The translations under genes and the position numbers were made by a program. From contig CM073324.1 in NCBI GenBank assembly GCA_037043015.1, positions 28,312,097-28,376,096 on the forward strand: a stretch of 64,000 nucleotides of DNA. The letters are read 5' to 3'. Of the stretch, positions 1,753 through 29,809 are shown one piece after another. Origin of the DNA: Bryum argenteum. Taxonomy: Eukaryota > Streptophyta > Bryopsida > Bryales > Bryaceae. Each line of letters begins with the position of its first letter. The first letter of the stretch is position 1. A model generated the notes under the pieces. The model searched no databases, had not been told where the DNA came from, and saw only the letters and a list, made by a program, of their open reading frames with translations.

Positions 1753-2707
1753 CTATGGCATCATAGAATTGGAAATGTAATGAGGTAAACCCATCTCCTC
1801 AAGTGGAATGCCGTACTCTGCCATCTTTGCTTCAAATGCTTTGATAACATCATTATGTGCCTGATAACCAAAATATGAACTAACTTTTTTGACGTTTCTT
1901 GCTTCTTGTTCATTTTCAATAAAAGTATCAAGATTATTTTAACATTTATTTCGAGAAAATCATAATTTTTATATATATAGAGTTTCAAGACGATTAATTT
2001 TTATTACCTTCGTAACTTTTCCTAGGTCGTAGCGTAAGGACTTGATCAAATTATTCTTCGATTCCAAAACATTTTCTATACCGGAATTTGGGTCCAGTTT
2101 AATTCCAGCTTCTCCAATTTGTGCTTCCTACATCATTGGACCAGTTCATACAAAACTAGTGTAACTCCATGAATTCTTGGAATCATAACTTTAAACCACA
2201 AGCTAAGTTGTGAACATTTTTTTAATCAACTAATATGATTAAAAGACCAATCTTTAAGTCAAGCACCTTTTTCTCAAGTTTTTCTCCCAAAACTTGCACC
2301 TTGCGTTGTAGAAGCATGCTCTTAAGCCCACACTTTTGTTGGACATCATAAATGCTGCTCTCAAATTTAGCAAAAACTTTGTCTCTTTCCGCTTGAAGCT
2401 ATTTTGATAGGAAATTGATAAGTATGCAAGAATATAATGTTCAACTAATGAACAACATTGAGCTACGTTTCATTTATTACACATAGTATGTAGTGTTATG
2501 GGTAATTAAAATTCTTAACCTCTAGCCGACCCTATATTTAATATCAACATTTTGGAAGAAGTGGTGAAACTTTGAAGATCCATGATATCTACCGAGGTAA
2601 CCCAACTCAAGAGACAGGGTGCTTGAAGATTCTCTACAAAAACTTCTCAAATATCCAACCCTAGTCCAACTTCCTAAGATTAATCTACTAGTAAATTTGG
2701 ATTGGCC

Positions 2708-2758
<51 letters not shown>

Positions 2759-5700
2759 AAAACTAAAACTAAACTGAAAAGTATCTCAATGACAGGATGT
2801 CCCTTTAATGACCAAAAGGACAACATTTGTGACAAAAGTTTAAAATGTCCAAATTGTTGGGACGATCACACACAAGTGGCTGCTACAATTGGATCGTGGA
2901 TTGACACGAATGATAGGATGTTGGTAATGACATGTCGCAAAACACACAAAGCTCTTTTGTCATTTGAGACACTTTCTATGGACCCTTTAACAAATTGCCA
3001 TTGTTTCCGTCGTTACTTTCTTGCCATTTTCTCCTAGTGATTTTCTTTGTTTTTGAGAAATGCACCTATTAAGCGAAAGTTTGCATTTCCATTGTCAATT
3101 AGAAAGTGGTAGTTGTGAACAATTTGGTAACAACATGTGACATTGCCTATTGCTACAGAAAAGGTGAGAATTAGTAAAAATCTGAAACTATTTACCTGTT
3201 CACATCGTTTCTGGAGAACTTGGAAGTCCCATTCTAGTTGTTTAAATTGCTTTGTCTTTTCCTTTAATCCTGAACTTGCTTGAGCAAGTAAGTGTTTGTC
3301 CTAAAATTGGTTTATCGTTGTTTATATGTAGAAAATCCATTATGATATTAGAGTATAATCTATAGCAATATGTGAAGCAAAGAAATAAGGATATTATGTT
3401 TATTGTCTACAATATGACCATGTAAAAATAATTACTTTTTCATAGTTAGTAAGATCTCTTCTGAGTCCATCAACCTCCTTCAGAGCTTTTGCCAATGGTT
3501 CAGTAAGCCTCTTATTTTCTTGTGCAATTTCATACATTAGTTTCTCATTGGCAGCCTCTTTTTTTTTCATATCTGTCACATCTTCCTAGAAAAACTACCA
3601 TGTGAAGCTGTGAGTGGTTTTCACATGAGTACCTTATCAAGATCTTATGTAAATACAAGTCTTTATTAAGGAAACAAGGTAATGTAGAGGCACTCTCATA
3701 GAGATGAATGCTAGAGAGAAATTAGCAACTAATCAAGTTTCCAAGTCATACCTTGAGGGTTTTGATTAAGTCAAGGTTATTGTGAGTGATATCGTTGTAG
3801 TAGCATTTGATTTCCGTAAATGCTTTCTCATGTTTCTTCATCAACTCACTAACATGCACATTCTTACGTTCTTCAATCTCTTGGATCTCTACTTTTCGCC
3901 GTAGGTCCATTTCCTCTCTTAACCCCTAAAGGCCCAAGCGTTTTTGCAACCTCCAATCTCAAAATCTGCGATTTTTGACCACATTGTGGAGTTTGGAGTA
4001 TGGCATAAATTTTTATTGTATTCTGGAACATTCAACCGTAAGATCTTGAACCTAACTTCATCCATGATTACCATGTCAAATCTCAACCGTTGGATCTGCA
4101 CCATTTGTGAGATCATAACGTTCAAAGTTGATGCAGAAATTTTTTTGTGGCTTGCCCGAAAGACATAGTCTACTTGGTGCAAAGGGAGACTTGGTGATTG
4201 TTACCCTAAACATTTTGCTAGTATTTTTTTCCATGTTAGAAATCAAGTTGGCCACACCCATGCAAAATTTTAGACACTCATTCCACTTTTTGGACCTTCA
4301 TACAATTTTTTTTCTAGAAGGAGGCAAAAAAGTACTCTAAGTGAACAAATTGGGGTTCTAATACAAATCCACCATCAACTTTTTGAATTTTTCAAAAGTG
4401 AACGGTGAAAATGTTCCTTTACACAAATCAGAGTCATGGGGGAAAAAAAAATTTGAAAAAAAGTAAAATCTCAATTATTGACAATTTTGGAGAACATAAA
4501 CACACATATGCAAATTAGTAAATGGACGGGCAACAAAGAAGAATGGGAACCCATTCTCAATCTTACGGGCCCATTGCTGGCAATATGGCAGAGCTATGAA
4601 TAGCCTACTGCCACCATAAATACTTTGCCTAATATTCTATGTAGATAGCTATGACATGTGTCACTTGCAATAAAGGGAGGGCTTTCTTCCCGTTGCTCCC
4701 CACCGTTACTAAGCTCCCTAAGCTCTTTATAAGTTCCCTATAAAAAGATGATCTGACAAAAAGGCCCACGCTTGCAACGACAAAGTGGATTTGACTGGCA
4801 CCTTGGGGAGCCACATGAGGTGGCAGGAATTTCGTGATCTGGAAAGAGCCGAGCTGGAGGAGCTGGCCCGCCTTGCTGCCGTCCCTGGCCACCACTTGTA
4901 CCGTGCAGTAGGCGCACTGATTGAAGCCCCCTTTGCGAAGTCGTTCTCCAGGGCACAAAATAGAATTCTCCTAACTGGAGAAAGGACTCCAGGGATTGCC
5001 GAACACCTACAAAATCACCAAAATTTATCAATTTACAAGAATTCTAATGTAACTAATAAAAAAATAAATTATCCATAAGCATAGTATTATTCATAGTATT
5101 ATTACTAACTTTTGTATGTGGGGTAAGAAACAAAGCAAAGAATTATTCACAAGCAATATTCAAATTATTGTGGTGTCATTTGTTTGTGGGGTAAGAAATA
5201 AAGCAAAGTATTATTCATAACTCAACTACTATTCATATTTGTTTGTGGGATAAAAACATAGCAAAGTATTATTCACAAGCAAAGTACTATTCATATTATT
5301 ATTACTAACGTTTGTTTGTGGGGTTCGAAATAAAGCAAAGTATTATTCACAAGGAAAGTACTATTATTCACAAGCAAAGTACTATATGCGCAAAATGTGG
5401 GGTAACAAACTTGAGCTTCCTCTTTGTATGCAAAAAAGAAATACTTACATTCACTCACATATGGCGTTGGCGTCGTATGGCAATATCTGTGTGCCACTTC
5501 TCAAAGCAACCTCGATTGAGACACATCCATTTGTCTCCACACTTCCGGCAGTAATAATGTGGTTCAAATTTTTGGCAAACCACACACCGACGTCGTAATT
5601 TTGTATATGTGGGTACACAAATCAATGGCGTGTTCCTTGCTCGAGGAATATCCGCGGGGTGTGAATCTCTCATAGGCCACCCTTGAAGAAGGGCTTCACA

Positions 5701-8700
5701 TAAGCCCTTCTTGAATTGAAGGTGTGTCATCGGCGTGCGGTTATATCGATAGTGTTTCACACACTCCAAATAATATATATACATGTTGACAATCGAGACA
5801 TCCAATAAGAAGAAAAAATACGGTGCCACCACTTGTGGCTCCGTACTTGGCATGAATAGGATGCTCGGAGTTGATCGGCAACATCTACACCTCGCATGTG
5901 AGTTGTATATTCTTTCAAAATCGGGGATGTTAGAATCATTTCACGACTTGCACCATTTCGCCGAGGGACCGTTACTACCTTCTCACATGGGGGTTGAATT
6001 GGCAAATAATGAGTGGAAATAAGAAGCACGGGCTTCTTATCCTTCCACATAACACATGATATCGTGCGGGTGTCATGCATTTTCCATAAAGTTGTGCCTT
6101 GAGGCACATTTTTGAAAGAATTGGTGTTTTTCAAATCTAAGGGAAGACCAACCCGGTTTGCCCTTATTGTCCCACATGCATACATTTCCCGTGATAAAAG
6201 AGTTGTGAAAAGTCCAAAACTAGTGAAGTAATTATCCATTGTCACGCAATGGCCTAAGTTCCAAAGGCCATCCACTAACCTCATAACTACATTATGGGCC
6301 AATCGAGCATCGCCAAGAACAATATTAGGTTGTTCTATGGGAAGGGGGGCTACAATATTGTCTTTTCCACAATAGATCTCGAAATTCCATACGAACTTTG
6401 AAATCGAGCATGCCAAACACCAAACCTTCAAGCCCCACTTTTGAGGCTTCTTAGGCATATATTGACGTATCGGTGAATATGTCCCCTTATAGCGAATCAT
6501 CATTTCATCAATGGTCAAATATTTTCCAAGAAACCATGCCTTTTTACATTGATCTCTCATAGCATTGACTAACCATCTTGTTTGACCGATTTTGTCATAA
6601 CCCGGGTCCCCTCTAGTTTGTCCTTCCATGTTTGTAAGATGGAGACATCTCCTAATGTCTTGAAATCGGGCCCGTGTAAATATATTTGAAATACTTGGGC
6701 ATCCAAAGAGGTCATCACGCATCCAATATGTTCTTACATTAGGTTGAACCCTCAACCCCATATATATGGCTAAGGCCATAAATGCTTTGAGGCTCGAAAT
6801 TGTCATATTCTCCCAAGTAGGACCACCTTTGGTATTTCCATGCTCATCTAAAGGAGCATTTGCATACCGATTAGTTTCTTGAACAATAGTGGCCAACATG
6901 TGTGGAGTCCAAAAGAGGCCAAATAAATCCATAAAACTTGGCATACCACGATGATGACGAGAAGGACCCATGGGTTTCCCCAAAAATGATATCGGCATTG
7001 GATTATACATAATACTTGGGTTTCCCCAAGTCTCATTCCTAAATTGCCACCTAATATCCTCTTGTTGATGGGGTAACCCATCGTTACGATTATCTCCATC
7101 ACTATCAGAGGCACTTTCAAAATTGGGTAAGTCCTCACTATCATTCCCACCCAAATCATCCCTCACACCATTGCGTGTCATTCTCCTTCTTATTATATGT
7201 TCTTCCTCAACATCATCATCCCACTCCATATTATTATTACCGCCCTCAGTATCATTGCCATAGAATTCTCCAGGCCCAATACCAGTACTTCTCTCCCCAA
7301 TAAAAATATTTGGCTGCAATGTGAATTGACCAATATTTTCTTCTGAAGTCACAACTACTGGTTGCCCTTGTAGCCCAAGCGTATGGCCTGTAAGGGGAAG
7401 GCCAGAAGGCGATGCACCCGCCACAGGAAGGCCCTGGTGCCCGGGTAAGCAGGCGTGCCGGCCGTTGCTGCTGTTCGGCTGGAGATGCCCCGCTGCGCTC
7501 GGCGCCGGACCCCAGCTGGCAGCCGACGCGCTTGACTCGCCGACGTGGCCCGACCTCGTGGCCGCGGCGCTGTGCCAGCCCGCAGTCCGCCGGCTTGAGT
7601 CCCATACTAGTCGCAACGCCGTTGCATCACCGCAATCTTGGTCGACGCCTAGCTGCAGCGCTGGTCCGTGCATCTCACCACTCCCGCTTGCTTCTTCGGG
7701 ATCAGGTCCAGCATTGTAGATCTCACCACCTCTCTTCCGTCCTCTTCGGCCAAAGTTTATTGCTGCAAGCAAGACTTCAGGTGGCCAGAGGATATCCTCA
7801 AGACTTGCAGCTCTCTCCATACCACTATCATCTTCTCCTTCTTCATTACACAATTCTTCTGAGCTTGGGTAATACGCATGCACTGGAGATTGCGAATTCA
7901 AGTACTCGCCGTTGAAGCCAACATCTGTATCAGGGAAGGTCATGAGCTCAACTCCAGGTCCTAGATCTGGCAATTCTTGATGTTGAGGAGGTAATATTGC
8001 TTCAGGACTAGATGGTGGGCTTGGAGGAACCGTAGTTGGTTCCGGTTGTGTCTGTAGACGTGAACTCCTTCTCATTGGAATATTGTCCCACTCCATCTGT
8101 ATTCTCCAAGTTAGACATTACTCATAACTCTCAACTATGAAATTTAGGTACATGTTACACAAGAGATACTCACCTCCTTTGACTTCTTCCATGATCGACG
8201 TGGAGGCATTGCTTGTATCGGGCCAAGTAGATTTGACAATATCAAGAAATTCTTGCTCAAAAGCGTGTTGATCAACCCACCCTAGAATATGTGCGGCTTG
8301 CCTGTAGAAATGGTGTCGGAAATTATTTGCTTGTGGATTTCTTGGCCAAGCTTTGGACTTCTTACGAACGCGTAAACTGCGCAAATGTTTTTGATCAAGC
8401 AGTGAAAGGAGGTCATGAATCTGATGTGCTCGAAGGTGTTTGCGTACAGCCCAGGAACGAAGGCGAGCTTCTGGATCGGCAGATGGAGGCGGCAATGTCG
8501 AAATAAGAAGTGGCTGCAAGTTTCCGACACTCACAACCGCAGTATTGGGTTCCTGCATATGGTCATATTAGTCAGTTGATGTGATGTCAGTTTACCATGC
8601 AAGTTCCACATGCAAACCAAGTTCATGTTCATGTATTCGAACCCGTTGATGTGATCGCTCCTCGATCTGTGCAATCATCTGATCGCTCACTGGCGCATGG

Positions 8701-11219
8701 GCTGCCGAAGTTGGTGATGATCTGCAGGCTGCCGAACTTGATGCAGCGGCGACCTTGAAGCTGGACGGTCGGAGGCAGCTGCAGTACGCCTCCGAAGGAA
8801 CTCGTCGACCTCCCTGGCACGTACAGTTCGCCGCCGATTCCTCTCGCTGAAGCTCAACCTCGGCGGCAAGTACAGTTGGACCACGAAGGAGCTGTTCGAT
8901 CTCCCTGGCCGAAGACTCTACTGCGTAATCACCATTTTCAGTGCTCTGATCATTTTCGGTCCATACTGGCACCTCGATGAATCCTTCTCCTACTGTTGCA
9001 CTCGCCTCTCTCGAATCGGTAGTTGCTAGTGAAATGATGGCAGCAGTCACAGGAACCCCGTCCAAAGAATTTGCAAAACTAGCCATAATGGATTTTTGTT
9101 ACTTTTGAAATATGCTTTGGATTTGATGTATGCTGTTTGTTGTTCCCAACATCTTTCCATGAGTTTCTCATTCAAATTCTGAAATTTGAATCGCCCCATG
9201 TCAGTGTGTTCTCAGCCGCCAGTTTCACGAAGTTTGTAGTTATGACATGTATTTGGAGGGGGCGTCAATCTTTGGCCAGTCCCAAAGCATTCAATTCTGC
9301 CGAATGTTGGGTCCTCCAAAACCCTGCTTGGAACCCCTGCCCCTCTGGAGTTTTCTCGAGTGACCCTCGCAACTGCCCCCATTTCCACCTTGTTCCTTAG
9401 TGGCCACAACAACAACCCGTTCTGCCCTTTCTCAACTCCAAATCAAAAATTTGCTCTACAAGGCACTAAAATTGGAATCTTACTTTGCAAATTTTACCAC
9501 ACACAATTACTATGTTTCCCGACACACACACCAAATTACAGCCCAAAACACCAAAATTTGACCTCTCATCTAAGGTGCCCAAAACTGCAAAACGCCGATT
9601 CGGCTTTCCTGGGCCTTTAGGGGTTAAAGTCTTGATCTGTTGTGCAAATGTGTGTTGCAAAAAAACTTGAAATAAAATTCACATCTTAAATTGTAAGTTT
9701 CCAATAATAAAATACTTTAATGAGGAGATGACCTTTCGTTCAGATTTTTGTTGAAGTTCTTTGGCATTTTGATCAAACTCTTGGCGCATCTTTGTGGCTT
9801 CTTTTGCATGTTCCTAAAACTTTACTCAAGGTTTGAAATATTTGAGTGGTATAGAATAAGTGGTTACTCTAATCTATATGAAAATGCATTTATATACATA
9901 AACAATAGCACTAGATAAATCTTTCTTGAACCCAAAATTTTCAAAAAAAGTGCAAGATATTGTAGTCTCCTTGAGATAAAAATGTCATTTCTCGTACTAG
10001 TTTGAATGCTCGTATGACATCTTCATAGGACAATTCCATCTCTTTTACACGGTCTTTAAGAGCACGTTTATCATTCCTGCAATTTGCGTCCAAAATTTAA
10101 CTGCATCAGACCAACAAAATATCAGCTACATTGAGTCTTTAATATACCACATGAAATATATTTTAGTATATATCAATGTGAGTAGTGCCAAGAAGCTCTA
10201 CGATTAAGAACATTAACGTACACAAGTTCCCCTTCACGCTTGCTAAATTGTTCTCGTTGTAATTTGAGAGCTTGTTCGTTGTCAGCTTTTATTGTAGCTA
10301 TCATATTTTGTTGCTCATATAGTAGGTGTTTCATTTTTTGGTTGTAAACCTGAATTATTGACCAATTCATTAAAAACTTTGATATGGCATAATAAAGTTA
10401 TTAATCAAATAGAACAAATAGATAATTTTTACCCTTCTCCAACATGACTTGGTCATCCACCACAGAAGATCATTCTTCAACAACATAAGTGGGACAAAAG
10501 AATATTATAAACTCTCAAAAAAGATATTGCAATTTGACTACAAACGAACCTTGAGCTCAAGTTGATGTGCTTCTTCAAGCTTTTCCATAGCTCTATCCTT
10601 GTTGCGAAATTCAGCACGTAACTTGTCATACTCTTCTTTTTTGACTTCCCAAAATGATGAGACTTTGTCCTGAGAATATGTTTTAGTACAAATAAGTAGT
10701 ACGAAACTTATTCCACATAGTTTAAAAGACCATTAAATTTCTGGTTGTTTTTTGTGTTCTTGAAGTCAATGAATATAATAGAGTACTTAATATACACCAT
10801 ACATTCAAGTCCTCATGGATAACATATGTTACAAAAAAGTTAGAACCTCCAGTCTCTAGGCATCTAGATGAACAAGGAGAAATTTACAAGAACCACTCAA
10901 AGAAGACTTGATAGTCCTTCTTTTATACAAGTTCCTCAATTTTGATTTCTCCAATATGGTGCACACCAATGAAGGTTTTGATTTTAAAGAATGCACCAAG
11001 TTGCTATTAGTTTTTTTTTTTTACACAAAAAGAGAATGTATAATTTTGTATTCTTACTCGTTCGAGCATCATGAGATTGCGCTCTTGGGTCTCTTTATCC
11101 TTGGCGACATTGATGACTGCAATTTGTGCCAATAATTCGGCAGGTGTGGGACCTTCTGGTCCTTCATTTTTCTTCTTTCCCTTTCCCTTCCCCTTCTTCC
11201 CTCCTTTCTTTGGTCCCAT
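1753..11219 (-). CDS. DRC4: Dynein regulatory complex subunit 4 (GAS8-like), interrupted by a piggyBac element
   Basis: This is the axonemal nexin-dynein regulatory complex subunit (GAS8/PF2 family), which links doublet microtubules and controls dynein in motile flagella, here those of sperm. Exons on the minus strand: 11219-11058, 10669-10550, 10349-10222, 10076-9998, 9813-9733, 9636-9628 plus 3922-3752 (one exon split by the transposon, counting one TTAA), 3585-3436, 3300-3196, 2398-2267, 2127-2008, 1860-1753. All introns are GT-AG. The sum is 454 codons plus stop, close to the family length. The N-terminus is Lys/Gly-rich ([17 protein letters not shown]). The rest is coiled coil with family-typical stretches: [99 protein letters not shown]. 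The element sits in codons for T-L-R near residue 194. Read-through would give 190 native residues, then about 56 codons (the last 52 transposon-encoded), then a stop. No other lesion is visible. Identification is from remembered family motifs. Confidence 0.93.
2709..2756. repeat. A48 homopolymer in DRC4 intron 8
   Basis: A run of 48 A is followed by a few AACTAA-type units. It lies in the intron between the exons ending at 3196 and starting at 2398. It may be the tail of a retroposed sequence or simple expansion, and it is prone to sequencing error. Confidence 0.9.
3919..3936. repeat. Left TTAA and terminal inverted repeat of the piggyBac element
   Basis: TTAA at 3919-3922 is followed by CCCCTAAAGGCCCA (3923-3936), the exact inverse of 9610-9623. 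On the minus strand, DRC4 coding sequence resumes directly after this TTAA. Confidence 0.96.
4780..4990. other. GC-rich island in the 3' part of the piggyBac element
   Basis: A block of about 200 bases is distinctly GC-richer than the AT-rich DNA on both sides. It is open on the plus strand ([20 protein letters not shown]) and on the minus strand. No known domain is recognised. A captured host gene fragment is possible, and non-coding is equally possible. Confidence 0.35.
5070..5390. repeat. Degenerate direct repeats inside the piggyBac element
   Basis: Several imperfect copies of a 50-70 base unit recur, built on TTTGTTTGTGGGGT, AAATAAAGCAAAGTATTATT and CACAAGCAAAGTACTATTC. They lie between the transposase stop and the left subterminal region. 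They could be internal binding sites or ordinary tandem expansion. Confidence 0.7.
5455..8096 (-). CDS. piggyBac-type transposase, one frameshift near the C-terminus
   Basis: A 779-codon frame (8096-5757) starts at ATG 8096 directly after a plausible acceptor CAG. It begins with a long acidic, Pro/Ser-rich region. The DDE_Tnp_1_7 core starts near residue 360 ([20 protein letters not shown]). Probable catalytic acidic residues lie in [12 protein letters not shown] (about residue 530), VTMDNYFTS (about 621) and [13 protein letters not shown] (about 685). The family motif [16 protein letters not shown] follows. After HKWWHR the frame is lost at a T6 run (about 5808-5820). The expected sequence, [10 protein letters not shown] onward, continues in another frame to 5455 and ends in a Cys/His-rich finger ([20 protein letters not shown]). 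A single one-base indel therefore separates core and finger. Otherwise it is intact, which fits a young element. The loss could also be a sequencing error in the homopolymer. Confidence 0.9.
8118..8558 (-). CDS. Accessory open frame upstream of the piggyBac transposase
   Basis: This 146-codon frame has a composition unlike random AT-rich DNA, including a basic stretch ([18 protein letters not shown]) and a helical segment ([20 protein letters not shown]). A good donor (GTGAGT, 8173-8168) follows an in-frame Glu/Val/Lys/Gly segment. An acceptor-like CAG lies just upstream at about 8553, so it looks like an internal exon of the element's transcript. I could not make its phase agree with the transposase ATG at 8096. 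Function is unrecognised. It may be a separate small protein or an N-terminal exon. Confidence 0.45.
   Translation of the reverse strand: MQEPNTAVVSVGNLQPLLISTLPPPSADPEARLRSWAVRKHLRAHQIHDLLSLLDQKHLRSLRVRKKSKAWPRNPQANNFRHHFYRQAAHILGWVDQHAFEQEFLDIVKSTWPDTSNASTSIMEEVKGGEYLLCNMYLNFIVESYE
8592..9086 (-). CDS. First open frame of the piggyBac element, unknown function
   Basis: A 164-codon frame starting [14 protein letters not shown], on the transposase strand and near the element's right end, so it may be the first exon of the element's transcript. It contains a Cys-rich patch ([17 protein letters not shown]) and is otherwise Ala/Ser/Glu-rich and GC-richer than its surroundings. Possible donors lie near 8597-8610, but I could not join it in phase to the next frame. 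No family is recognised. It could be host sequence captured by the element. Confidence 0.4.
   Translation of the reverse strand: MASFANSLDGVPVTAAIISLATTDSREASATVGEGFIEVPVWTENDQSTENGDYAVESSAREIEQLLRGPTVLAAEVELQREESAANCTCQGGRRVPSEAYCSCLRPSSFKVAAASSSAACRSSPTSAAHAPVSDQMIAQIEERSHQRVRIHEHELGLHVELAW
9610..9627. repeat. Right terminal inverted repeat and TTAA of the piggyBac element
   Basis: TGGGCCTTTAGGGG at 9610-9623 is followed by TTAA at 9624-9627. The nine bases at 9628-9636 are the start of DRC4 exon 6, preceded on the minus strand by an intron acceptor CAG at 9639-9637. Confidence 0.96.
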
Positions 11220-15367: not shown

Positions 15368-16882
15368 TTATAGGGTAACTTCTTGTTCTATTACATTTAA
15401 CTGACGCATGCCAATACCATGAACAAGTCGACGATGTACAGATACCGGAAGCGCTTTCGTGAACAAATCTGCAAGATTGTCTGCTGATATAATCTTCTTG
15501 ATTTCAAGTACTCCAGTTGTTATCAAATCATGAGTGAAACTGAAATACTTCGGATCGATATGTATGGTTCGATCGCCTTTGATAAAACCAGCTTGCATTT
15601 GTGAAACACAAGCACTATTATCCTCATACAAAACTGTAGCAGCGTTGTTATATGGTAATCCAGAATTTGTTAAAATAAACTTATCAACGGATCTTAGCCA
15701 TATGCATTCTCTAGAAGCCTCGTGTAAAGCAATAACTTCAGAGTGATTCGATGATGTCGCAGTTATTGTTTGTTTTACAGATTTCCAAGAGATAGCAGCA
15801 CCGTGTCTCAAGAATACATACCCAGTTTGAGATTTGGAGGTTGCTGGATCGGATCTATAACCAGCATCAGCATATCCAATTAATGTTGAATTAGCCGATC
15901 GTGTATAATGTAGACCCAAATGCTCAGTTCCCTTCAAATATCGGAATAAATGTTTTACGCCGTTCCAATGTCGTAAAGTAGGACGGGCACTATGTCGTGC
16001 TAAAACACTCACTGCAAAAGAAATATCTGGCCTTGTAGATTTAGCCAAATATAAAAGAGACTCCAACCGCTGCGAGGTATGGATATTGTTCGCCCAATAT
16101 ATCCTCCTTTTCCTCGCAAGGACGATAAGGGTCATCACCTTTGGTACTACGGCCAACCATCGGCGGAGATAAAGGATGTGCATCAATCATGTTAAAACGT
16201 TTTAAGATTCGATTGATATATGTCGATTGAGAAAGAAAAACGCTACCATCTTTCAAATGAAGTACTTGTAAACCAATACAGAAAGTGGTTTGACCAAGTA
16301 ATTTCATTTCAAACTCCCGAGTTAAAAGCTGAGTAGCTGCATTGCATGCAGATGGTGTTCCAACAAGATTCAGATCATCAACATATACTGCTATAATAAC
16401 AAACTCTTGTTTATCTCGTTTGATAAATAAACATGGAGTAACTGGTCATTCTTAAAATGATGACTGATGAAAAAATCTCTTAAATGTTGGTACCAGATAC
16501 GGCCCGATTGTTTAAGGCCATATAGAGCACGTTGCAATTTAACTCCACGATGTTTACTAGCAATAGGTGCTGAAGAACCCGTGCAATCAAGTCCGGGAGG
16601 AACCTTCATGTAAAGGTTATTTTCGAGTGATCCATAGAGATAGGCAGTGACAACATCCATGAGACGCATTTCCAAAGTGAAATGCACAGCCATACCGATT
16701 AAATATCGGAAAGTAATAGAATCCATAACAGGTGAGTATGTTGAATCATATTGAATTCCAAACTTCTGAGAAAAACCTTGAGCAACCAAACGCACTTTAT
16801 AACGAGTGATCGTACCTTTGTCATCACGTTTGCGCACAAATACAAGTTTGTAGCCAAGAGTTTTGTTTGTGAGATTATTCAC
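15368..16882 (-). pseudogene. copia reverse transcriptase and RNase H, frameshifted
   Basis: The reverse transcriptase reads from 16882 (YKVRLVAQGFSQKFGIQYDS, LMDVVTAYLYGSL, LYGLKQSGRIWY). The frame is lost near 16440. The catalytic YVDD is present in another frame at 16386-16375, followed by KLLGQTTFCIGLQV. A second shift lies between 16041 and 16186, after which RNase H reads to the stop at 15368 (LIGYADAGYRSD, SLYLAK-type and ADLFTKALP motifs). At least two frameshifts plus the upstream stop mean no functional Pol. Confidence 0.93.
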
Positions 16883-16897
16883 AATAGGGCCAAAAAC

Positions 16898-18631
16898 TTA
16901 ACGTTTTCTCAAAGATGTATACTCCTCCTCAATAGCAGCTTTCCATTTCGGCCAATCAGAGCGACGCATCGCTTCGTCAATAGTTGTTGGTTCGGGATCA
17001 TCTTTCTCGCAAGAGATGCTCTCAGCAATCATACACAAGAAATTGTCATCGAATTCAAAATCAGGCCTATTCAATATCTCACCAGTGTTACAATACAAAA
17101 TTGATAATTCTGTATTAGATGGAGATATTTCTCCAACTTGTGAAGTTTGAAGAAAAACAGTTCGATTTTCTGTAGGAGATGCTAAGGGTGGAGTAGAAGG
17201 AAGTTGATCAGAACTTATCCTTCTTTTACGTGGTTGCTTACCTGGACCACGAGTACGCTTCATTGTCGGCTGAGTATGTATAGTTGCTGGAGAATCCACT
17301 GTAGAAACTCGAGCAGGAAGATTCTGAGCTTCATTGAGTGGATTCTTAGTAATCCTCGATGCGTTGTTGAAACCGTCAGGTGTTTGATTAGCAATCTTTT
17401 GCAAATATAGAATTTTAGCAACTTCACTTTCAGCCAAAGAAGATCTTGGATCAGGATTTGATATAAATGTTTCAGCGGCTTTGAAATCAAGAAGTTTAGA
17501 CTCTTGAGAAGATGTTGCGTAAGTTAAAGACGGAAATTTATCTTCTTCAAACCGGCAGTTAGCAAAACGGGCTCGTAGCAACGTACCGGTAGTTAGACTG
17601 ATGTAGCGAATAATACTTGGAGAATCGAATCCAACATAAATCCCTTCTCGTCGATGAGCATTAGTTTTGTGTCGATAGGGTTCAGAGGTAGGAACCCAAA
17701 CACGACATCCAAATGTCCGCAGATGAGAAACATCTGGAACTCGTCCGGAAAGAAGTTCTTGTGAAGACGCAATCTCCATAGATGAAGGTCGAAGACGGAT
17801 TAATGTCGCACCGTGTGAAACAGCATGTCCCCACATTGTCGAAGATAAATGAGAGTGAAGAAGTAGTGATCGTGTAATCCACTGAATCCTTTTAATAAAA
17901 GATTCAGCTAGACCGTTTTGAGCGTGTTCATACGAGACTGAATAAGTGAGGTCAATCCCCGTTGCGCTGCAATAATCCTCAAATGCCTTCGAACGAAACT
18001 CTTGAGCATTATCCATACGTAGCGTTCGAATTGGATAATCAAGAAAATGAGCCTTGAAACGTATAAGCATTGAAAGTAAATTGGCGAACGCCAAATTTCT
18101 TGATGATAATAAAGAAACATGAGATTGCCGACCCGATGCATCAACAAGAACCAAAAAGTATCGAAATGGTCCACTCATAGGAGTTATTGGACCGCAAATA
18201 TCCCCATGTAGTCTGGAGAGCATTGGTGGCAATTCATTAGGTAGTTTGTATAGTGAAGGCTTGGCAATTAATTTGCCTTGTACGCAAGCCTCACACAAAC
18301 CCATCGAGTTAACACTTGTTGGTTGTAGGTTATGTTCTACAACGCATGGAAGAATTTTGCGTAAAAGTGTAGAGCCAGGATGACCCAATCTTCCGTGCCA
18401 AAGTGCAACTTTATTATTTTTAGAAGACAAAGCAAAACTACATATAGTAGGTGGTCGGATTGGAATCCGGTACAAGCCAGTTGCCGCAGCAAATGCTGTT
18501 TCTACCACTTTGTTATTCTGTACAAAAACCAAAGGCTCTCGCTTATCTAGAATACTAGTCGAGAGGTGCGAACATCTCAACAGCTGATCAGGCTTCGAGG
18601 TGCAGAGGGAGAGTACATAGCACGCATGCAT
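16898..18631 (-). pseudogene. copia integrase region with start of reverse transcriptase
   Basis: A long open stretch carries the integrase HHCC finger (WHGRLGHP ... CEACVQGK), the catalytic acidic residues in LHGDICGP, RMDNAQEF and NGLAESFIKR, and the C-terminal GFDS / FGCRVWVP segments. It runs into the linker before reverse transcriptase (WPKWKAAIEEEYTSL) and is stopped by an in-frame TAA at 16900-16898. The reverse transcriptase continues beyond in the same frame. Confidence 0.94.
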
Positions 18632-19848
18632 GTAATGGTGGTGCCCTCAGGCAAAATCACCTTTGTTGGTCCCTCCTGGAAACGAAATACATTCGATCCA
18701 GCCATAGTCATTAAATTTCTGGTTTGCCAGGTTGACAAATTATTTATGTCAAAAAATGCTTTATCCCGCAGGATTGTATGAGTAGTTGCAGAATCAAGGA
18801 GAGCATCGTGTGACTCACCAGGAGAGATGTCCTCTGCAACGTACGTTTCCATTTCGTCGGTTTGAAATGGATCCATAGAAGCATCCATGGTGTGGGCCTC
18901 TCGTTTCTGAGATTTATATCGCTTGTTCTCTTGGAACATCTTTACAAAATACTCTGGTGTTCTGCAAACATTAGCCAGATGACCTACTCTGCGACATTTG
19001 TGGCAAGAACGCGTCTCTGATGGACGCTTACCACTACCAGTGGTAACGGAAGAAGTATTCTTCCGTTGAGTCTGCGGTTTTCCCTGGTTAGACTGATCAT
19101 GCTGTTTGTTACGGTATTTCTTAAACTTTTGGTTCTTAGGTTTAACACTAGGAACCTGGACAGCATGAGACTCAGGTACAAAGGTACCAATGGGGCGAGC
19201 TTCTGCATTTCGCAGAAGGAGCTCATTTTGCTTCTCAGCAAGAAGTAGAAGAGACATGAGATCAGAATGGTTAGTAAATCTCATATTTTTGTACTGTTGG
19301 GCCAGTACAGCATGAACAGGTGGAAAAGTTGAGAGAGTTTTCTCAATCAATTCTTCTTCAGTTATGTTTTGACCACAGAGCCTTAGTTGTGAAATTATCC
19401 TATAAAGCTCGTTGTTAAAAGCAACAAGAGTTGGAAAATCCAACACTCAAAGATGGGTTCAGTCAGAGAGAGCTCGAGGATGAAAAATAGTTTTCTGGTG
19501 ATCAAAACGAGATTTGAGCTTGTGCCAAAGTTCATTAGGATCTTCAATCTCCAGATATTGATACTGGAGAGATGGGACTAGATGGTGACGAAGAAGAAGT
19601 AAAGCTTTCCAAGAAATGGAAGGCTGGAGAGTAGGACTTACAACCATTCCCGGGTCGAAAGCAATAGAACCCGATAACTGGTCCCCAAAGATGTGAGCTT
19701 TAGCGGTCCTCGCCCATAATAGATAGTTATTGCCATCTGCTGACAACTGTGGGAATTGTAGAGGTTGAAGTCTCATCGGAGGGTCAAGGTTAGTAACAGC
19801 CACCGGCATGGCTGAAGATGTAGCCACGGAAGAAGTAGAAGAAGTCAT
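18577..19848 (-). pseudogene. copia gag and protease region, broken
   Basis: Capsid-type Gag starts at 19848 (MTSSTSSVATSS) with LQFPQLSADGNNYLLWAR, the usual copia N-terminal motif. Two in-frame TGA codons (19461-19459 and 19449-19447) interrupt it, and the same frame continues with LYRIISQLRLCG. A CCHC knuckle (CHKCRRVGHLANVC) and an aspartic protease active-site stretch (LLDSATTHTILRD) follow. The frame then ends near 18577, where integrase is in a different frame, so a frameshift lies around 18580-18630. Confidence 0.93.
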
Positions 19849-21189: not shown

Positions 21190-24093
21190 ATGGATGAGAA
21201 CCAGGTTGTTCGAATTGCCCATGCCGTGATCCTTCTACTGGACTTTGAGAAAGTGTATGATCGAGTCAACTGGACCTTTCTTGAAGAAACCATGCGTAAG
21301 CTGGGATTTTCAGATACGTGGGTGCGCTAGACGTCCTCTCTCTACCGCAACGCGCAGTCCTCTATTTTGGTGAATGGGCAACGTCTAGAACGTTTCCAGC
21401 TTGAGCAGTCAGTTCATCAAGGGTGCCTACTAGCACCGTACTTGTACTTGTTTGTTGCAGATGTGTTAGCACACCTCCTCAACGATCCTGTGTATAATGT
21501 TGAAGGCATGGTGTTGCCCGATGAATCAGTAGTCCGTGTCCAAGGATTCGCCGATGACACGACACTCTTTCTAAATGGAAAAGCAGACAATCTGAAGAGA
21601 ACTAGCAAAGTCATCGATCTTTTTTGCTCTGCATCAGGTGCAAAGATCAATTGGAAGAAATCATGCGCTGTCTGGGCATCCAACAAAGTCCGTGGTTGGA
21701 GCTGGGGCGAGGATTTGGGATTGAAGTGGCTTGCCCCAGGTGAAACGACAAAGTATCTCGGATTTCTGTTCGGGAGCGAAGTATCATTCATGGAGAATGA
21801 CACAAAGGTCTTGTTACAGGTTCGAAACAAGTTGTGCGCATGGGGTGGCAAGAGATTATCGCTTGCTGCAAGGATCTTGGTAGCAAATCAAGTCATATTG
21901 GCCAGTATCTGGTACTTGGCATCGTGTGCCGAAATTTCTCAAGGGACGCTGCTACGAGTCAGAACACTCGTGCGCAACTTTGTTTGGGCCGGAGACCCCG
22001 AACACGGTGCTCGTGCGCGAATCGCATGGGACACAACAATCATCCCCACTTCGTATGGAGGATTGAAGCTTTTTGACCCAAAAGCTCAAACACATGCACC
22101 TTTAGCGAAGATGATGGTCCGAGCAATGGCCTCGGGCAATGAACTGTGGAAGGCATTCATACGCCACCGGATCGCAAAGCTAGCTCTTAGGAGAGACGGG
22201 GATTGGGGTGCATCCGAAGCGTGGCTTGGTTCTGCACCATCGGTAGTGCCGCAAGGCTCGCCCTTGTGGAAGGCAATCTGGTGTGCCTGGAAAGCAGTGC
22301 GCCTGGGAACTAAGCAGGAGGTTCCAACAACAGTTGCAGAACAACTTTGACAACCATTATTCTGGAACAGGCCCCTCAAAGTTGATGGCATTATGCTAGG
22401 GGAAGAAAGACGCTCTCGGTTCCGAGGGTGGACTCATAAAGGCATACTCGTAGTGAAGGATGTCGGGAATTCCGATGAAGCTAGTTGGAAGCCAGATTGG
22501 CAACTTGCAGAGGAATCTCAATCTTATCGGGTCCATGAACTCTCGGATCGTGTTAGGCGAGCAAGTTCGTCACTTTCCCTTACAAATCCGCCTTCCTTGA
22601 CTGCAGGAGTTTGGCTCACGATGCGCTCTCAAGGAGCTCGTCCCTTCTATCTATTGGAAAATTTCAGCAATGGAAGTTGGACAGCGCTCTGCTTCAACCA
22701 GATGTCCCCGGCCTCCAAGTTGTTGCCGGATCCCCAAGGATTAGTGACCATTCCGCGAGTGGAGCTCCATGAAGCCAGAGTCATTTGCTCCTCAGCAGCA
22801 GGAAAGGCATTGCACATTAACCCATCATCGGCCTTGCCCGAAGCCAATCTGTGGGCATTTCGTCACGGCGTTGTTGAAGACCTCCAGTATGACCCAAAGG
22901 AGTGGATGTGGGTTTGGCAAGGGGACATGGAGCCGACACACCTTTTCAACTATACTACCAAACGCGGTTACCGAATAATTATTCGTAACCAGAGACGTCA
23001 ATTGCGTCTTGATGCTCAATTGTCCAGACAAGGTTTTTCGAATCAGCAGCGAGGACAATTCTTCCGTAGGCTGGGGCACCATTGGACCCCTCGCAAGGTA
23101 AGTTGCATGGTGTGGCTCACCATTGCGGAGGGCCTCCCAATTGGTGCTTGGAGAGCCAAGTTTGGCCAGTCGGGTAACTGCTCCCTGTGCCTAGGTGAAG
23201 TTCTTCAGACTGCCCGTCATGCATTTTTTGACTGTCCAGCAGTGAAGGTGGCATGGGCTTGTCTGAGAAGGATGCGTACTCTTGCGGGCTTGGCGCCCAG
23301 CCTCTCGACTTGGGACTCGGTGTTGCTTGGTGACTTGGACACGCCGAGGCCAATAGACGGCGAGGCTGTCGGTGACATGACTTGGGATACATGGACATCA
23401 TACAATGTGAATGATAAGACTCCTTGGCATATCCTCCGCTCAGTCCTCCTGTAGACGATTTGGAGCGAGTACTGTGACTATGACTTGCATTCTGGTTGTT
23501 TTCATTTGGGTGTGGCTCTTTTTCGCAGCTGGAAGATCACCATTCAGGCAGGCATGGGTGCTTGGTATGAACTGTAGAGGCACCGGAAGAAGAGGAGTGC
23601 GGAGAAGAATGCGGCGATGGTGCATCACTTCCTCCACATCTGGTGCAAGGGTGACATCTTATGCAGAAATAAAGGAGGTGTTCCAGCTTGGAACCCGGCG
23701 CCGCACTTCGAATTCCTACCTCAAGAGCTGAGTAGGAGATTTGCGTCAACGAGAATCAACCAGGCTACCAATGCTGGTTTTGCAGGAGAAAGCTCTCCTC
23801 CCCATTCGGAGTCGAACGTAGATGGCTCAGGCAATTAACCACCGGTGCCCCCACGCACTTGGGTGGGCAACCCCACTCCTCTCCAGACCCGGTTTCATCC
23901 TGAGGAAGTTTCATCAACACTCTTACTCGATACAGCTACTACCGAAGCGGATCACAAGGCCTCTCTGATACTTGAGAGGATCATGGACTCTCTCGTGGAT
24001 GAAGTCATTGCTGAAGGCGAAGTTAACTTCCCGGAAGACATTCAGTCTCCTCATGACCTAGAAGAGCAGTCAGCCTTCTGGGCCAATCTGTGA
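21190..24093 (+). pseudogene. LINE ORF2 remnant (non-LTR reverse transcriptase), 5'-truncated
   Basis: A single frame runs 2.9 kb: LLLDFEKVYDRVNW, FQLEQSVHQGCLLAPYLY, the catalytic FADDTTLF, TKYLGFLFG, and a C-terminal zf-RVT-type finger (CSLCLGEVLQTARHAFFDC). No endonuclease domain precedes it, so the copy is 5'-truncated at about 21190. Five in-frame stops interrupt it (TAG 21328, TGA 22348, TAG 23452, TAG 23575, TAA 23836), but I find no frameshift up to the TGA at 24091. The copia element ends just upstream (21095), and I see no LINE sequence left of the copia element, so the copia is adjacent rather than nested. Confidence 0.92.
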
Positions 24094-24406
24094 AGCTAGT
24101 TTTACTCTATGACCCAAGGTCTGTTATCATTATTTGACCCTCGGTCTTCCAGTGCTCCCTCTGCAGGGCCAAGGGCTTGGCGATGTGATCCACTCGCATG
24201 TAATTGTTCTCGTTTATTTACTCATACCCCGGAACACGGGCTTAAACTGTTCGAATTGCCATGTGGCCTTGCAAACATGACCTGCGATGAGTGTTGGTGT
24301 CCATGTCCAAGAAAGGAACAGCCAATGGTAGCCCCACCAAGACTGCCACATGTCAAATACCCCCTCTAGCCTCTGAAACGGCCATCGTTGTAACTGTGAA
24401 GATACA
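24094..24406 (+). other. Probable LINE 3' region
   Basis: Non-coding sequence follows the last stop of the LINE frame. I could not place a poly(A) tail or target duplication. Confidence 0.35.
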
Positions 24407-24681
24407 GAGCTTTGCCGCTCACTAAATCCAATCCATGTCCCCCACTTAAGTGGGACCCCAGTTTTTTTATTTTCCGTTTTTGACTCGGGCCTCAAGGTCA
24501 TTTTTTTTATTTTTTTTTTGAAATTTGGGGTCTGCACCCCCATTTCTCCCTTGGGGGCCTCTTCTTGGAATTTTAAGGCCTTAAACACAAAAAAATACCG
24601 GGCAGCCTTTTATTAGCCTCCCTCCACATTTGGAAATTCTAGGGCGAACATGGATTGGATTTAGTGTCCGGCTAGAGCTTC
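24407..24681. mobile_element. Foldback / MITE-like element
   Basis: Its arms contain a perfect 19-base inverted repeat, CACTAAATCCAATCCATGT at 24420-24438 and its complement at 24648-24666, with looser pairing outward to about 24407 and 24681. The 209-base centre has T-rich runs and no coding potential. Total size is about 275 bp. I could not define a target duplication, so the superfamily is open. Confidence 0.7.
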
Positions 24682-25900
24682 TCTCTCATCTGACATATGC
24701 CAGTTGCCCAATTTCCCTCACTGAACACCAGCGCTCCGGCTGTGAAGTTCATGTATACAACTTCCAATACGACCAAGCTCTACGTGTAGCGATGACCACC
24801 CAGGTTCCATTTACGATCGAAGTTCTAAATTTGAGAGATGCTTGTACTGTGTCACCACTGGATTGCGTCATTTCATTGCTTTCTTGCAGAATATGACGCT
24901 TTCTTGATAGGAATCTGGTAAGCTAAAAGTAGAGTTCTAATTTCCGACAGGGATAACAACAAGAAGCGCGCTGTAGACACCTTGCATGCGGTTTTGAACT
25001 GACTCTTCGTTTGTTTGATTCCATGGGTGCAGGTGAGGCGCGTCTTCTTGAAATGAAAGCTTAGCTCTCACCTTACGGCAGATTTCTACCCTTTCTACCA
25101 ACTGCTTATTTTCATAAAGTAGTGCAATTCGCAAGCTATGCTAGTAAGAGTATCTGGATTGCTTGACTCCTCCTGATGATTCTAGTGCCAACAATGCTCA
25201 GTTTTCCTCATTCCAATTGAATGATCATCTTCTGATGCTCTCAAACTATGACTATTATCGATCATGATCTGTTCGATAACTTTGCTTATGGACCCCGCCC
25301 TCCCTCCCGGCACTGTCTGGTGACATAAGACTCACTGCAGTATGTGGCGATAGAAGCTCATGTTTTCGTAGTCTCAATCCTATCCCTACAAATACTGCGA
25401 CATCCTATCTTACTTGACATAATCTGTCTTTGAAAAAGCAATCACGCAGTAGAGCCTGTGTGGTTTGACTTTCACATACCCATTGGGTACCAAATCTAAT
25501 GTCTGCATCATGTTTTTTCATGATCTTGATTCTGGTCACAGCGAGACTGCAAAACTATGCTATACTTGATGATTTCTAAAACTTAAAATAATCAACCATG
25601 CGGCAAGACCTGCTCTGTAGCTTTTTCTGTCATCAATTATTTTTTGGACGATTATGTTCTAGTTTCAAGAACATGGTACATCTGATTGGGGTTTCGATCA
25701 TTGTCCATGTACTGATAAATGATAGAGGAGAAATAGCATGTTCGTGGCTGAGCAATGATACAAGAAACGACATGAAAAAAGTAGACAAAAGGATCCCACA
25801 AATGGGGTGTCTAGTATAGTACTGTATCTCTCCTTAAATCCACTTGGAAATGGTGAATTTCCTTGTGCTTCTTTCTACTCATGTTTCATGGCGATTGACT
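24682..25900. other. Spacer without recognised features
   Basis: Mixed composition with no open frame above about 90 codons that looks coding. The sequence TGTGTAG at about 25907 could be an acceptor for the next locus, so upstream exons might hide here. I recognise none. Confidence 0.4.
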
Positions 25901-25904
25901 TGTG

Positions 25905-27888
25905 TAGGACGATGTGTCTTTGTTGCATGGACTCTGGTCTCCTGACGTCGTTGCTGCTGGCTACGGTGACCCCCTGCCTGCTCCGTCCCCTGCAGTTCAT
26001 GCTACGCTGGCCTCGCTCGGATCTGCCAAAATTCACAAGTTCATTCAGGAGCAGGATAGAGATGCCCTCCTTGATCGCGACGACGACGGTGAGCATGCAA
26101 CTCTGCTTCTAGTCACGCTTGATTTGTTCCAATAGACCCTTATCTTGAACCTCACAATACGTGACTCTCCTGAGAAAGCTTTGGCCCACTCTCAACTTGC
26201 CGAGATGCTTGATTGGGAGAATGAGGACTTTTTGCAAGCTGAATGGGACTCCACTGCTGTCCGTGCGGCTCTGAAGGCCGCTAATCCACATGAGCCCCCA
26301 CATCCATCTCCAGGCAATCAACCACTACTAACCATCCTTTCCTCAGTGGTTTGAACATTGATCCTGCGCAAAAAGCTTCTCTGGAGGATCTGGTCGACAC
26401 GATCCAATCCTCCCATGCAGAGAAAGATTTGGCCCTCCTGTTGGCCTCACGCAAAGGACCTATCGTGCCACTAACACCTACACGTTCCATCGAAGCTCAG
26501 GTGGGTGCAAAGGCCCACTGATGTTGGAGCCTACCTAACATAAATCTGTTAGGTCCAATCTCTATTCCGATGTGGCGTACTTGGACAAACATTCAAGCCA
26601 CCGAGATGGACGCGCTCAAGGCGAATGCAATACACGACACTGGCATCCTCCGGGATGGCCAACCAATCTCTGGTGCCTTCCTGCTAGCACTCTTCGATCA
26701 CAAGAAATACTCTTCACCGGAGATACGGATCCTGACCAAGCAAGCTTTGAACTCCAGTTTCGGAAGAATTGAAAAATATTCCTCAGTTGTTTGGAACTGT
26801 CAGCGCCCATACTTCAGATGTACATGCAAACCAGATTCTTCAAATGGTTGCAAAGGCGATGTGATGTGGTTTGACCACGCCATATGGTTCATGGTGAACA
26901 ATCTGCCTATTTTCTTCGACAAAGAATATCCATCCCTGGCTCCTAGATTCAGGGCGTTCATTATATGGGTGAGTGACGGTGCTCGAGTGGCTGTCCGTCC
27001 AAATCACCATTCACTTTACACATGAATAGATGGTGGAGGCTTTCCTACAGTTTGTTGATGATCCGAATGCCAAGCTATTGGCAACACTCCCTGATGCTGG
27101 TATTCGTCAAAATAATAGAGCGTTGGATTAAACCAGCTTCTTTCTCTGCTGCAAATCTAGCGACATCGGGATCCCACAACACTAGCAAACGACCACGTCT
27201 GAACATCAATGCCCCTGCATCTCCGGGAGATGAGTTACACACTCCTCCTTTTTCTCGAAATACTGTGCGTGGCTCGATGTGTGGTGGACGATGTGGACGC
27301 GGCAGGTACAACCGCAAATACCGACCCTCTCTCCAGTCCGCACTTCTCCCACTACAGCACTAGCGTGGGTCTCCTGCCACATGTGGGGTACACCATCCGT
27401 CGAGTCCAAACAAAGCTTTCATTTTTACAGAACCTGCCTACCGCAACCCTCCTGTTTCTCGCTCTACCGTGCAGATTTCCCTGGTTGAGTCATATACGAC
27501 CTTAACGCGTGCTCCCCCAACCTCCGTCTCTGTCCCACAGAGTTTGTCTCCAACTCCATCTCAGAATGAGACTACATCCTCGGCCAAGACAATTGCTCGC
27601 TTTAAACGTGCTTCCATGAAGGGGCATTTTCTGGACTGGGACTCTCTGTAGCACTAAGAACGTGAGGACTGCATGATTGCGGATCTACCAGACCGGTTCC
27701 TCTCCCACGATGCGTATGGACGTACTCGTCTTCAACGCACAGACATGAAACAAGGTGTCAAGTATCTCCACGTCTTCTACTGTAGCCATGCAATGGAGTG
27801 GCTCAACTTACGGCAAATTTTCACGGACGTTTTCTCCCACTTTGGTTTAGTGGATCAAGTCTATTTAGATGATGTAGCGTTTTCTTGA
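25905..27888 (+). pseudogene. Upstream coding part of the reverse-transcriptase locus, decayed
   Basis: Codon-like stretches in changing frames: a segment beginning LLHGLWSPDVVAAGYGDPLP (about 25914), LAEMLDWENEDFLQAEWDS (about 26190), ALKANAIHDTGILRDGQP and YFRCTCKPDSSNGCKGDVMW (26570-27025), and KQGVKYLHVFYCSHAMEWLN (27673-27888). GTGAGT-like donors (26095, 26970) and a downstream AG (27030) suggest introns, for example about 26970-27030, after which VEAFLQFVDDPNAKLLATLP follows. The last segment shares the frame of the next one and is separated from it only by TGA 27886. I recognise no domain here. It may be the N-terminal part of the same protein. Confidence 0.5.
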
Positions 27889-27897
27889 TCATATGAC

Positions 27898-29809
27898 ATG
27901 AATCTTGCTACTTTTCTCTACAAACCATCTGATTTATTCAAACACTTTTCTTTCATACATCTACTTGACTCAGATGATAATTGCACTTGTATGACGGCTC
28001 AACGTTTACGATCATTTATTGATCCTCTTACAACCCATGAGCACTTAGGATTTTCCAAGCCTACCCCGCATGTCCGCTCCATGGACTTACGGATCATACA
28101 GAACCTCCGGCTCAGGAGCGAACTCTCTCATGGCTTGAACCACATTCCTCTGTCACCGACAGATCTCAACCAAGCTATTTGGATAGCACTCGATGCCTTT
28201 GCACGGTTATATGCTCTATTACACTTGCATGATTACGCGTTGTCACTACCGGATGCGTCTGCATATTGCAGACTGTTTTGCGTTGACAAATTACATGATG
28301 CTTCTCGATCCAACCACTTTGGTTTCAGATCATCCAGCCCTGCTTTGTTCTCACACAATGCTATGATGAATGAAGTAAATCGGCTATTAAAACACGTATA
28401 TGTATCTGGTCTGAATAAGGCCAATAATAATCCCTGCTTCATTTGTATCAAGCATATTCATCTCCAGGCGTTTGAACAATTATCTAGTACGGACTTTACA
28501 CCCTATATGTCAAGGAAATCCTGGGAGATGCCCACATCGATACTCGATGTAGTGCGCAATGATCTCTCCATACTACTACCCGAAGCCCCACCTGTTCACC
28601 TTGCTCTCCCTTTCTTGATGGCATCCTATAAGCAGCACAAGCTCAAATATCGATGGCTGACTAACGCGTTCTATACTGTCTACAACTCTATTGCCTCGGT
28701 CCTAACAGTGGCCACTATGGCCGTTTTGGAAGCTTTCAAAACCTGAGCACAAAAAACACTTCGTGGCTACCGTAACTTCCTTGGTGTGGAGACCTCCATC
28801 TTCTGGATGGTCGACTCCATCCTCCACGTTACACTAAATTTACCACATGAGATGCATGACATCTATGTAGCTGATATTACAAAATTCTTCGAATCAATAC
28901 CGTTAAGTGGCCCTGACAACTTGATGGACTCTGTCCGTTTCATCATTAAAACTGGCTATGTTACTGCATCCAAAATCCAATACAAAACTGTGGATTAAAG
29001 TTTCGAAAGATGCTTCAGCGTCCTCGGCACGATGGGATACATCCCGGCCTTGATATGGAAAGTGGATTGACATGCCGTTAGTACGTTTACTAGAGCTACA
29101 TCTGTGGCTCATGAATAACTGCATGGTCACACTTGGTGATCGCGTCTGGAAGCAAACCAAAGGGATTCCAATGGGATTTAGTTGTTCCCCGCTCAATTGC
29201 AATATTTACCTCATTGCATATGAAGTGAGATTCATACAACAATTAGCTACCCTAGGTCGCAGGGACCTCATGGCTAAATTTCGTCATGCCTTCCGCTATA
29301 TTGACGATATTTGCCTTTTTAATGTCGAGAATCCTCAATCTTTTTTGGACCCAACACAACCCCGTACTAATGACAACCGTTTTTGGATATACCCTCTCCA
29401 TGTATTGGAGATCAAATCCGAAATTGAGAAGTTTGATGCGGAAAAGCCTCTACGTGGTATTTCTGCACATTTTATGAACATGCAAGTTATCCTTGACCCT
29501 ATGAACTCTACAGGTTTTCTTATCAAGAAATATGATAAACGTCGTGCTCTCCCGTTTACATACTCGCAATTTATCACGTTCCAATCCAATCGACCAGTGA
29601 GAAATGCATATAATATTGTGCTTTCACAAGTTCTACCAATACTCTACCTATCCAATTCAGTACAAGCTGCGGTGGAAGAAATATCAGCTTTATTTTACAC
29701 CTTGACATGCAATGGCTTTGTGGAACAACACCTTCGATCTAAGGTTGTCTCATGGCTCTCTGATGGCTACTTCCCGGGGGCCAATGTCAATGTCTCGGCT
29801 GTCATATGA
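27898..29809 (+). pseudogene. Unusual reverse transcriptase (GIPMG / YIDD type), decayed
   Basis: Segments are 27898-28743, then 28747-28995 in the same frame after TGA 28744, then TAA 28996 and a frameshift, then 29072-29809. The order of motifs is consistent: IQNLRLRSELSHGLNHIPLS, PCFICIKHIHLQAFEQLS, LPFLMASYKQHKLKYRWLTN, a DITKFFESIP segment carrying a first catalytic Asp, KGIPMGFSCSPLNCNIYLIA (GIPMG at 29162-29176), RYIDDICLF (YIDD at 29297-29308), then IKKYDKRRALPF near the end. It has no LINE, LTR or group II intron hallmarks and no endonuclease in view. From memory it resembles the RT family with GIPMG-RYIDD-YDKR motifs seen in algae, bryophytes and some animals. It could alternatively be a Penelope-like or cellular rvt-type gene. 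I am sure of RT, unsure of subtype. Confidence 0.85.

Follow-up and report, generated by a model that had tools for sequence, protein, structure and literature searches.

A young piggyBac family in the moss Bryum argenteum and a full-length copy interrupting a coding exon of DRC4

The coding sequence of DRC4, part of the nexin-dynein regulatory complex, is interrupted in the assembled genome by a full-length piggyBac element. We put at about 0.82 the probability that this is a recent, random insertion by a member of a young family and that it makes a loss-of-function allele of DRC4 in the sequenced plant. An earlier note on this DNA had proposed a piggyBac at a TTAA within a DRC4 coding exon, and the proposal is borne out by perfect 14-bp terminal repeats, by a TTAA on both sides and by a transposase matching the Pfam domain DDE_Tnp_1_7 with an E-value of 4.5e-71. 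All positions below refer to the window, that is the whole stretch of 64,000 nt that was analysed, in which tRNA and Rfam scans gave no matches.

DRC4 lies on the minus strand and runs from 11219 to 1753 in 11 exons, with a CDS of 1,365 nt encoding 454 aa and ending in a single terminal stop. The exon model was drawn by hand from the reading frames, guided by what is known of DRC4, and was checked against solved chains and relatives. In this model all 10 introns are GT-AG, and the exons and splice sites other than the interrupted one are intact, as had been stated before. The exons of the model are:

11058..11219, minus strand, DRC4 exon 1 with the ATG
10550..10669, minus strand, DRC4 exon 2
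10222..10349, minus strand, DRC4 exon 3
9998..10076, minus strand, DRC4 exon 4
9733..9813, minus strand, DRC4 exon 5
9628..9636, minus strand, DRC4 exon 6a (IKT), preceded by the acceptor CAACAG
3752..3918 (3752-3922 including one TTAA), minus strand, DRC4 exon 6b, with the donor GTATGA
3436..3585, minus strand, DRC4 exon 7
3196..3300, minus strand, DRC4 exon 8
2267..2398, minus strand, DRC4 exon 9
2008..2127, minus strand, DRC4 exon 10
1753..1860, minus strand, DRC4 exon 11 with the stop codon

Removal of the element together with one TTAA joins 9 nt (9628-9636) to 171 nt (3752-3922) and restores an exon 6 of 180 nt with phase 0 at both ends, which is the unbroken 60-codon exon that the earlier note had described. 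Across the restored joint the protein aligns without gaps to all 10 relatives that were compared (eight of 452-483 aa and two of ~300 aa). Residues 1-451 of the 454 in the restored protein are covered by a solved DRC4 chain (best E 3.8e-156), and this full-length match to known DRC4, found together with the Pfam GAS domain at residues 219-410, identifies the gene. The top three predicted-protein matches, among the best 120 of 1,067, are all from mosses: Ceratodon purpureus (86%), Sphagnum and Physcomitrium. As assembled, the reading frame continues for 194 DRC4 codons and 52 element codons and then meets a stop, giving 246 residues. Since the GAS domain lies entirely past the insertion point, the whole of it is lost. 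A search of the assembly for the empty exon 6 site (31 bases, up to 3 mismatches) found no such site anywhere. This makes it less likely that the assembly includes a second haplotype or a close duplicate, and has no bearing on a diverged paralogue.

The element occupies 3919-9627, which is 5,709 bases with both TTAA copies, or 5,701 bp from repeat to repeat. The span given earlier, 3919..9636, is right at its start and too long at its end, since the element stops at 9627 and the last nine bases, 9628-9636, are host exon. The terminal repeats CCCCTAAAGGCCCA and TGGGCCTTTAGGGG are perfect 14-bp inverted copies of each other and form perfect arms of 18 bp when the TTAA is counted. The parts of the element, with what each assignment is based on, are:

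3919..3922, no strand, TTAA target-site copy adjoining exon 6b (sequence)
3923..3936, no strand, terminal inverted repeat CCCCTAAAGGCCCA (62 exact genome copies including TTAA and the next bases)
3923..9623, minus strand, piggyBac element body, 5,701 bp, with the transposase codirectional with DRC4 (sequence, Pfam and copy alignment)
5455..5853, minus strand, Cys-rich C-terminal transposase end, out of frame with the 779-aa frame (frames)
5757..8096, minus strand, transposase frame of 779 aa with DDE_Tnp_1_7 at residues 389-762 (Pfam; Asp motifs aligned with piggyBac and piggyBat)
8118..8558, minus strand, open frame of 146 aa upstream of the transposase (no Pfam match)
8592..9086, minus strand, open frame of 164 aa upstream of the transposase (no Pfam match)
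9610..9623, no strand, terminal inverted repeat TGGGCCTTTAGGGG (61 exact genome copies including TTAA)
9624..9627, no strand, second TTAA copy (sequence)

The frame at 5455-5853 has a stretch that is Cys-rich by eye and no Pfam match; in one of the 21 copies examined it is continuous with the 779-aa frame, and its end closes the resulting 880-aa frame of that copy. Judging by the frames, 8118-8558 could be either an exon upstream of the transposase or a frame in its own right, and the top-scoring acceptor-like site of the region, at 8552, falls within it. G+C-rich blocks were seen by eye at 7370-7690 and 8690-8930 in an otherwise A+T-richer element, whose 1-kb GC profile peaks at 0.52; the block within the N-terminal part of the transposase frame could be captured sequence.

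The TTAA duplication, the short terminal repeats starting with CCC (a mark of the piggyBac family), the DDE_Tnp_1_7 domain and three Asp motifs place the element in the piggyBac superfamily. Its transposase aligns with piggyBat (9c0f) at an E-value of 2e-25 and with PDB 6x67 at 9.9e-22; the latter is named 'Transposase' there and we take it to be the insect piggyBac (IFP2, Trichoplusia ni). The homologous domain extends over about 370-390 residues, with the three Asp motifs, RGVDVADQ included, lined up with both structures and presumably holding the catalytic Asp. The TTAA target and the CCC-starting terminal repeat are also shared with piggyBac. In contrast to piggyBac and piggyBat, from both of which it is distant in sequence, the moss family has its own ends, CCCCTAAAGGCCCA, and a length of 5.7 kb, which includes long flanks and two additional open frames. 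The nearest transposase relatives reach 61-62% identity over the domain (sources jgi and lgn; domain search with at least 120 matches), and the search with the whole protein gave one match, 46% identical over 24% of the query, among the 7,998 best candidates scored. This is a new family within the known piggyBac superfamily, with a clear gene-breaking insertion.

The 259-Mb genome contains 62 exact left ends, matched by a 33-base pattern that takes in the TTAA and the bases following the repeat, and 61 exact right ends, matched by a 34-base pattern with the TTAA; the reversed control of either pattern has no match. All left ends except one, on contig C6 near 1.296 Mb and without an exact partner, pair into elements of 5,698-5,716 bp with both TTAA counted (61 of 62), and the genome-wide pairing of all 62 revealed no internal deletion derivative that keeps two exact ends. 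Searched at the DNA level, the left end returned at least 41 places, namely the window, 39 near-identical sites and a single one at 75%. Full copies were fetched from all 39 near-identical sites, which make up 39 of the 61 other places, the remaining 22 being known from their ends alone; a further sequence fetched for the 75% relative (L048) is without an exact end and was excluded from all counts. Each of the 39 has both ends and a TTAA on both sides, with 5,690-5,708 bp from repeat to repeat, and since all of them show the same ends and target-site duplication, chance is excluded.

Insertions of the family are spread across contigs C1 to C11. The distribution is uneven as regards two contigs: C1 (44.1 Mb, the longest seen) carries one of the 62 left ends against 10.6 expected by length (P 1.3e-4), and C2 carries 18 against 8.3 expected (P 9.6e-4), P values which refer to contigs picked after the counts were seen, with eight contigs tested. 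The single copy on C1, L047, is also the sole divergent one of the 40 aligned; C1 could be a closed or a sex-linked chromosome. Elsewhere, two full copies (L045 and L046, G000:C2:1907221-1918618) stand tail to tail with a single common TTAA; both carry a substitution at 4567, as a local jump would leave them. The right flank of L022, TTAAcccctaaagatccaag, resembles the end of an older relative, and so does the 75% match at G000:C6:13134662-13134946, which lies ~150 bases from the copy L016.

The copies are alike enough for the insertion to be recent, which the earlier note had offered as one possibility: besides the ~62 exact-end copies there is the near identity of 39 of the 40 that were aligned. 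L047, with 115 substitutions relative to the window copy, was excluded from the age figure; its substitutions away from indels are mostly crowded in the parts that match 8440-8930 and 9215-9374 of the window, in a mosaic-like manner. Compared with the 38 others, the window copy has 0-18 substitutions (mean ~7, most beside indels) and 6-18 indel events. When only columns at a distance of more than 8 positions from the nearest indel are considered (4,553 in all), 12 are variable among the window copy and these 38. Four pairs of neighbouring columns account for eight of the 12; these doublets, counted as four events, may be consensus errors. Eight events correspond to ~5e-5 per site per copy (39 copies, filtered columns). 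At a mutation rate near 7e-9 per site per year, the filtered differences would make the family about some thousands of years old; the raw differences taken at face value would give roughly 10 times that age or more, which would still be young. Polishing may have shifted the likeness of the copies in either direction.

Indels occur at 75 positions among the 39 copies; in the 21 copies for which they were listed, many fall in homopolymers. In 20 of the 21 copies read for frames, the window copy included, the longest frame is 415-824 aa, as opposed to the 880 aa over which the transposase is open in the remaining one; the shorter frames are probably broken by such indels. The break near 5812 in the window copy may likewise be an assembly error and so says little about activity.

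To see what the family has struck elsewhere, the joined flanks (280 bases a side) of the 39 other copies were read for coding frames. The longest frames are at L017 (188 aa), L027 (112), L031 (99), L039 (94) and L045 (93), the last of which runs into the neighbouring copy. L017 (G000:C5:11359909-11365617) interrupts a 225-aa frame that matches NB-ARC just above threshold (E 3.1e-05, 23.8 bits vs a cut-off of 23.5), while its 140-aa piece has no Pfam match. This was the sole other site compared with Pfam, and a reading of this kind may overlook insertions that fall in short exons or other genes.

We propose that a full-length piggyBac of a recently multiplied family entered a TTAA in exon 6 of DRC4, codirectionally with the gene. 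Translation of the disrupted gene would then end after the 194 own and 52 foreign residues, and the allele would be null or nearly so. With insertions spread over C1 to C11 and one more in an NB-ARC frame, a random hit is the simplest cause, and with ~62 insertions it would not be very surprising that some sperm gene was struck. The flagellated cells of mosses are the sperm only, and therefore loss of DRC4 should cost the green plant, a female or a clone nothing. The insertion would thus survive as DRC4 probably serves swimming sperm alone while the haploid green plant grows clonally; an alternative cause of its survival may be that the sequenced plant is female. The allele would be private or recent, and precise excision of the piggyBac could in principle cure it.

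Several published systems bear on this scenario. Knock-out of DRC4 makes mice male-sterile, according to PMC11910659, and in P. patens vegetative culture is described as relaxing selection on sexual-reproduction genes (PMC7358436). The case resembles the P. patens Gransden strain in that sexual-reproduction genes decay without harm to the green moss plant (PMC7358436 and PMC10521525), and differs from it in that male infertility there comes mainly with point changes, whereas here a transposon sits in DRC4. In rice, piggyBac leaves a coding sequence without a footprint (PMC10905368), so the DRC4 allele could revert if the element were active. The rice excision reporters described there likewise carry piggyBac at a TTAA inside coding sequence; they are engineered and supplied with transposase, while the moss element is natural and no excision has been seen. 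The Gransden strain has also been linked to ccdc39. A ccdc39 mutant is male-sterile, as given in PMC8648619.

Other readings of the insertion have to be weighed against a recent allele that breaks the gene. It may be somatic or culture-born, present in part of the sequenced tissue, with the assembler having chosen the occupied form. The apparent youth of the family would fit continuing movement and one of the 21 copies examined has the open 880-aa transposase frame, yet the assembly contains no empty site within 3 mismatches, though an assembler may drop a minor form; we regard this reading as unlikely, if well worth keeping in mind. It appears improbable to us that the insertion is harmless because a diverged second DRC4 takes over the function. 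Moss genomes often hold duplicated genes, and the search that failed to find an exact or near exon 6 site is blind to more than 3 mismatches in 31 bases, but within that range it argues against such a copy. An assembly artefact is barely credible: the many small indels of the copies, often in homopolymers, do resemble consensus errors, but a misjoin is not expected to duplicate a TTAA and leave an exon whose frame is recovered to the exact base, and all 39 of the other full copies fetched show the same form.

The allele could also retain some function through splicing. If exon 5 were spliced to the end of the element, at CCTTTAG/GGGTTAA (the slash marks the junction), a DRC4 of 452 aa would result that carries G in place of IKT. 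This junction keeps the frame, and the predicted product meets no stop before the normal one. The acceptor scores 1.9, which falls inside the span of -2.5 to 8.7 that DRC4's own acceptors reach when each is scored with itself left out; these scores come from a small matrix built on DRC4's own 10 introns and so have low power. Against this, the site ranks 87th of the 368 AG sites in the region, three AG sites at most ~45 nt upstream of it reach similar or higher values (1.8, 3.8 and 4.0), and the 3' end of the codirectional transposase would probably stop transcription first, so that we find a partly functional allele of this kind very doubtful. Maize Ds and dSpm, which are spliced as introns, offer a precedent for a transposon end serving as a splice site; unlike theirs, the splice end of the moss element is a prediction with a weak score. 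Skipping of the interrupted exon 6 as a whole would yield an in-frame protein of 394 aa, as the exon is symmetric (60 codons, phase 0 at either end) and the frame stays open without it. Of the 94 columns that are invariant in the alignment of 11 rows, however, 33 fall in residues 191-250, which the exon encodes; function of the product is unlikely, and this outcome has very little probability in our view.

A bolder version of events would have the family still moving in the living moss, with ends that make its gene insertions reversible or tolerable, and the DRC4 allele would then be a switchable clonal fertility mutation. As the repeats are inverted, every insertion shows the acceptor-like end CCTTTAG/GGGTTAA downstream, whichever its orientation. 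Were this version true, excision would restore the TTAA, and the in-frame end would let sperm perhaps make the 452-aa DRC4; we consider it a long shot. The reading we prefer remains the loss-of-function allele produced by a recent random insertion.

Even so, the ~62 copies, near-identical where aligned and with at least one open transposase frame, are a candidate for a naturally active land-plant piggyBac. The superfamily itself is among those found in all groups surveyed, land plants included, according to PMC4438587. The repeat table of a fern study gives it 0.00% of the assembly (PMC6890710), and insect piggyBac has been used in chrysanthemum (PMC10797517). Of the piggyBac types in small animal genomes, 88.7% are represented by fewer than six intact copies (PMC10813416), which makes ~62 exact-end copies in one moss notable, with the difference that intactness in animals was judged by the transposase too and the moss count is of exact ends. 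PMC10619864 uses 'piggybacking' in another sense and was set aside. Among the papers listed, with few subscription journals covered, titles and abstract openings contain no earlier account of a young moss piggyBac family or of a transposon in a moss DRC4. The DRC4 insertion adds a conserved sperm gene apparently caught soon after its breakage, and it fits the view that haploid clonal mosses shelter mutations in sexual genes.

Elsewhere in the window, inspection by eye points to a Copia retrotransposon and further reverse-transcriptase-like elements at 15368-19446 and 21367-29809, and to frames resembling AP-3 delta adaptin and a UPF1/SMUBP2-like helicase at 35209-38167 and 46083-47972.
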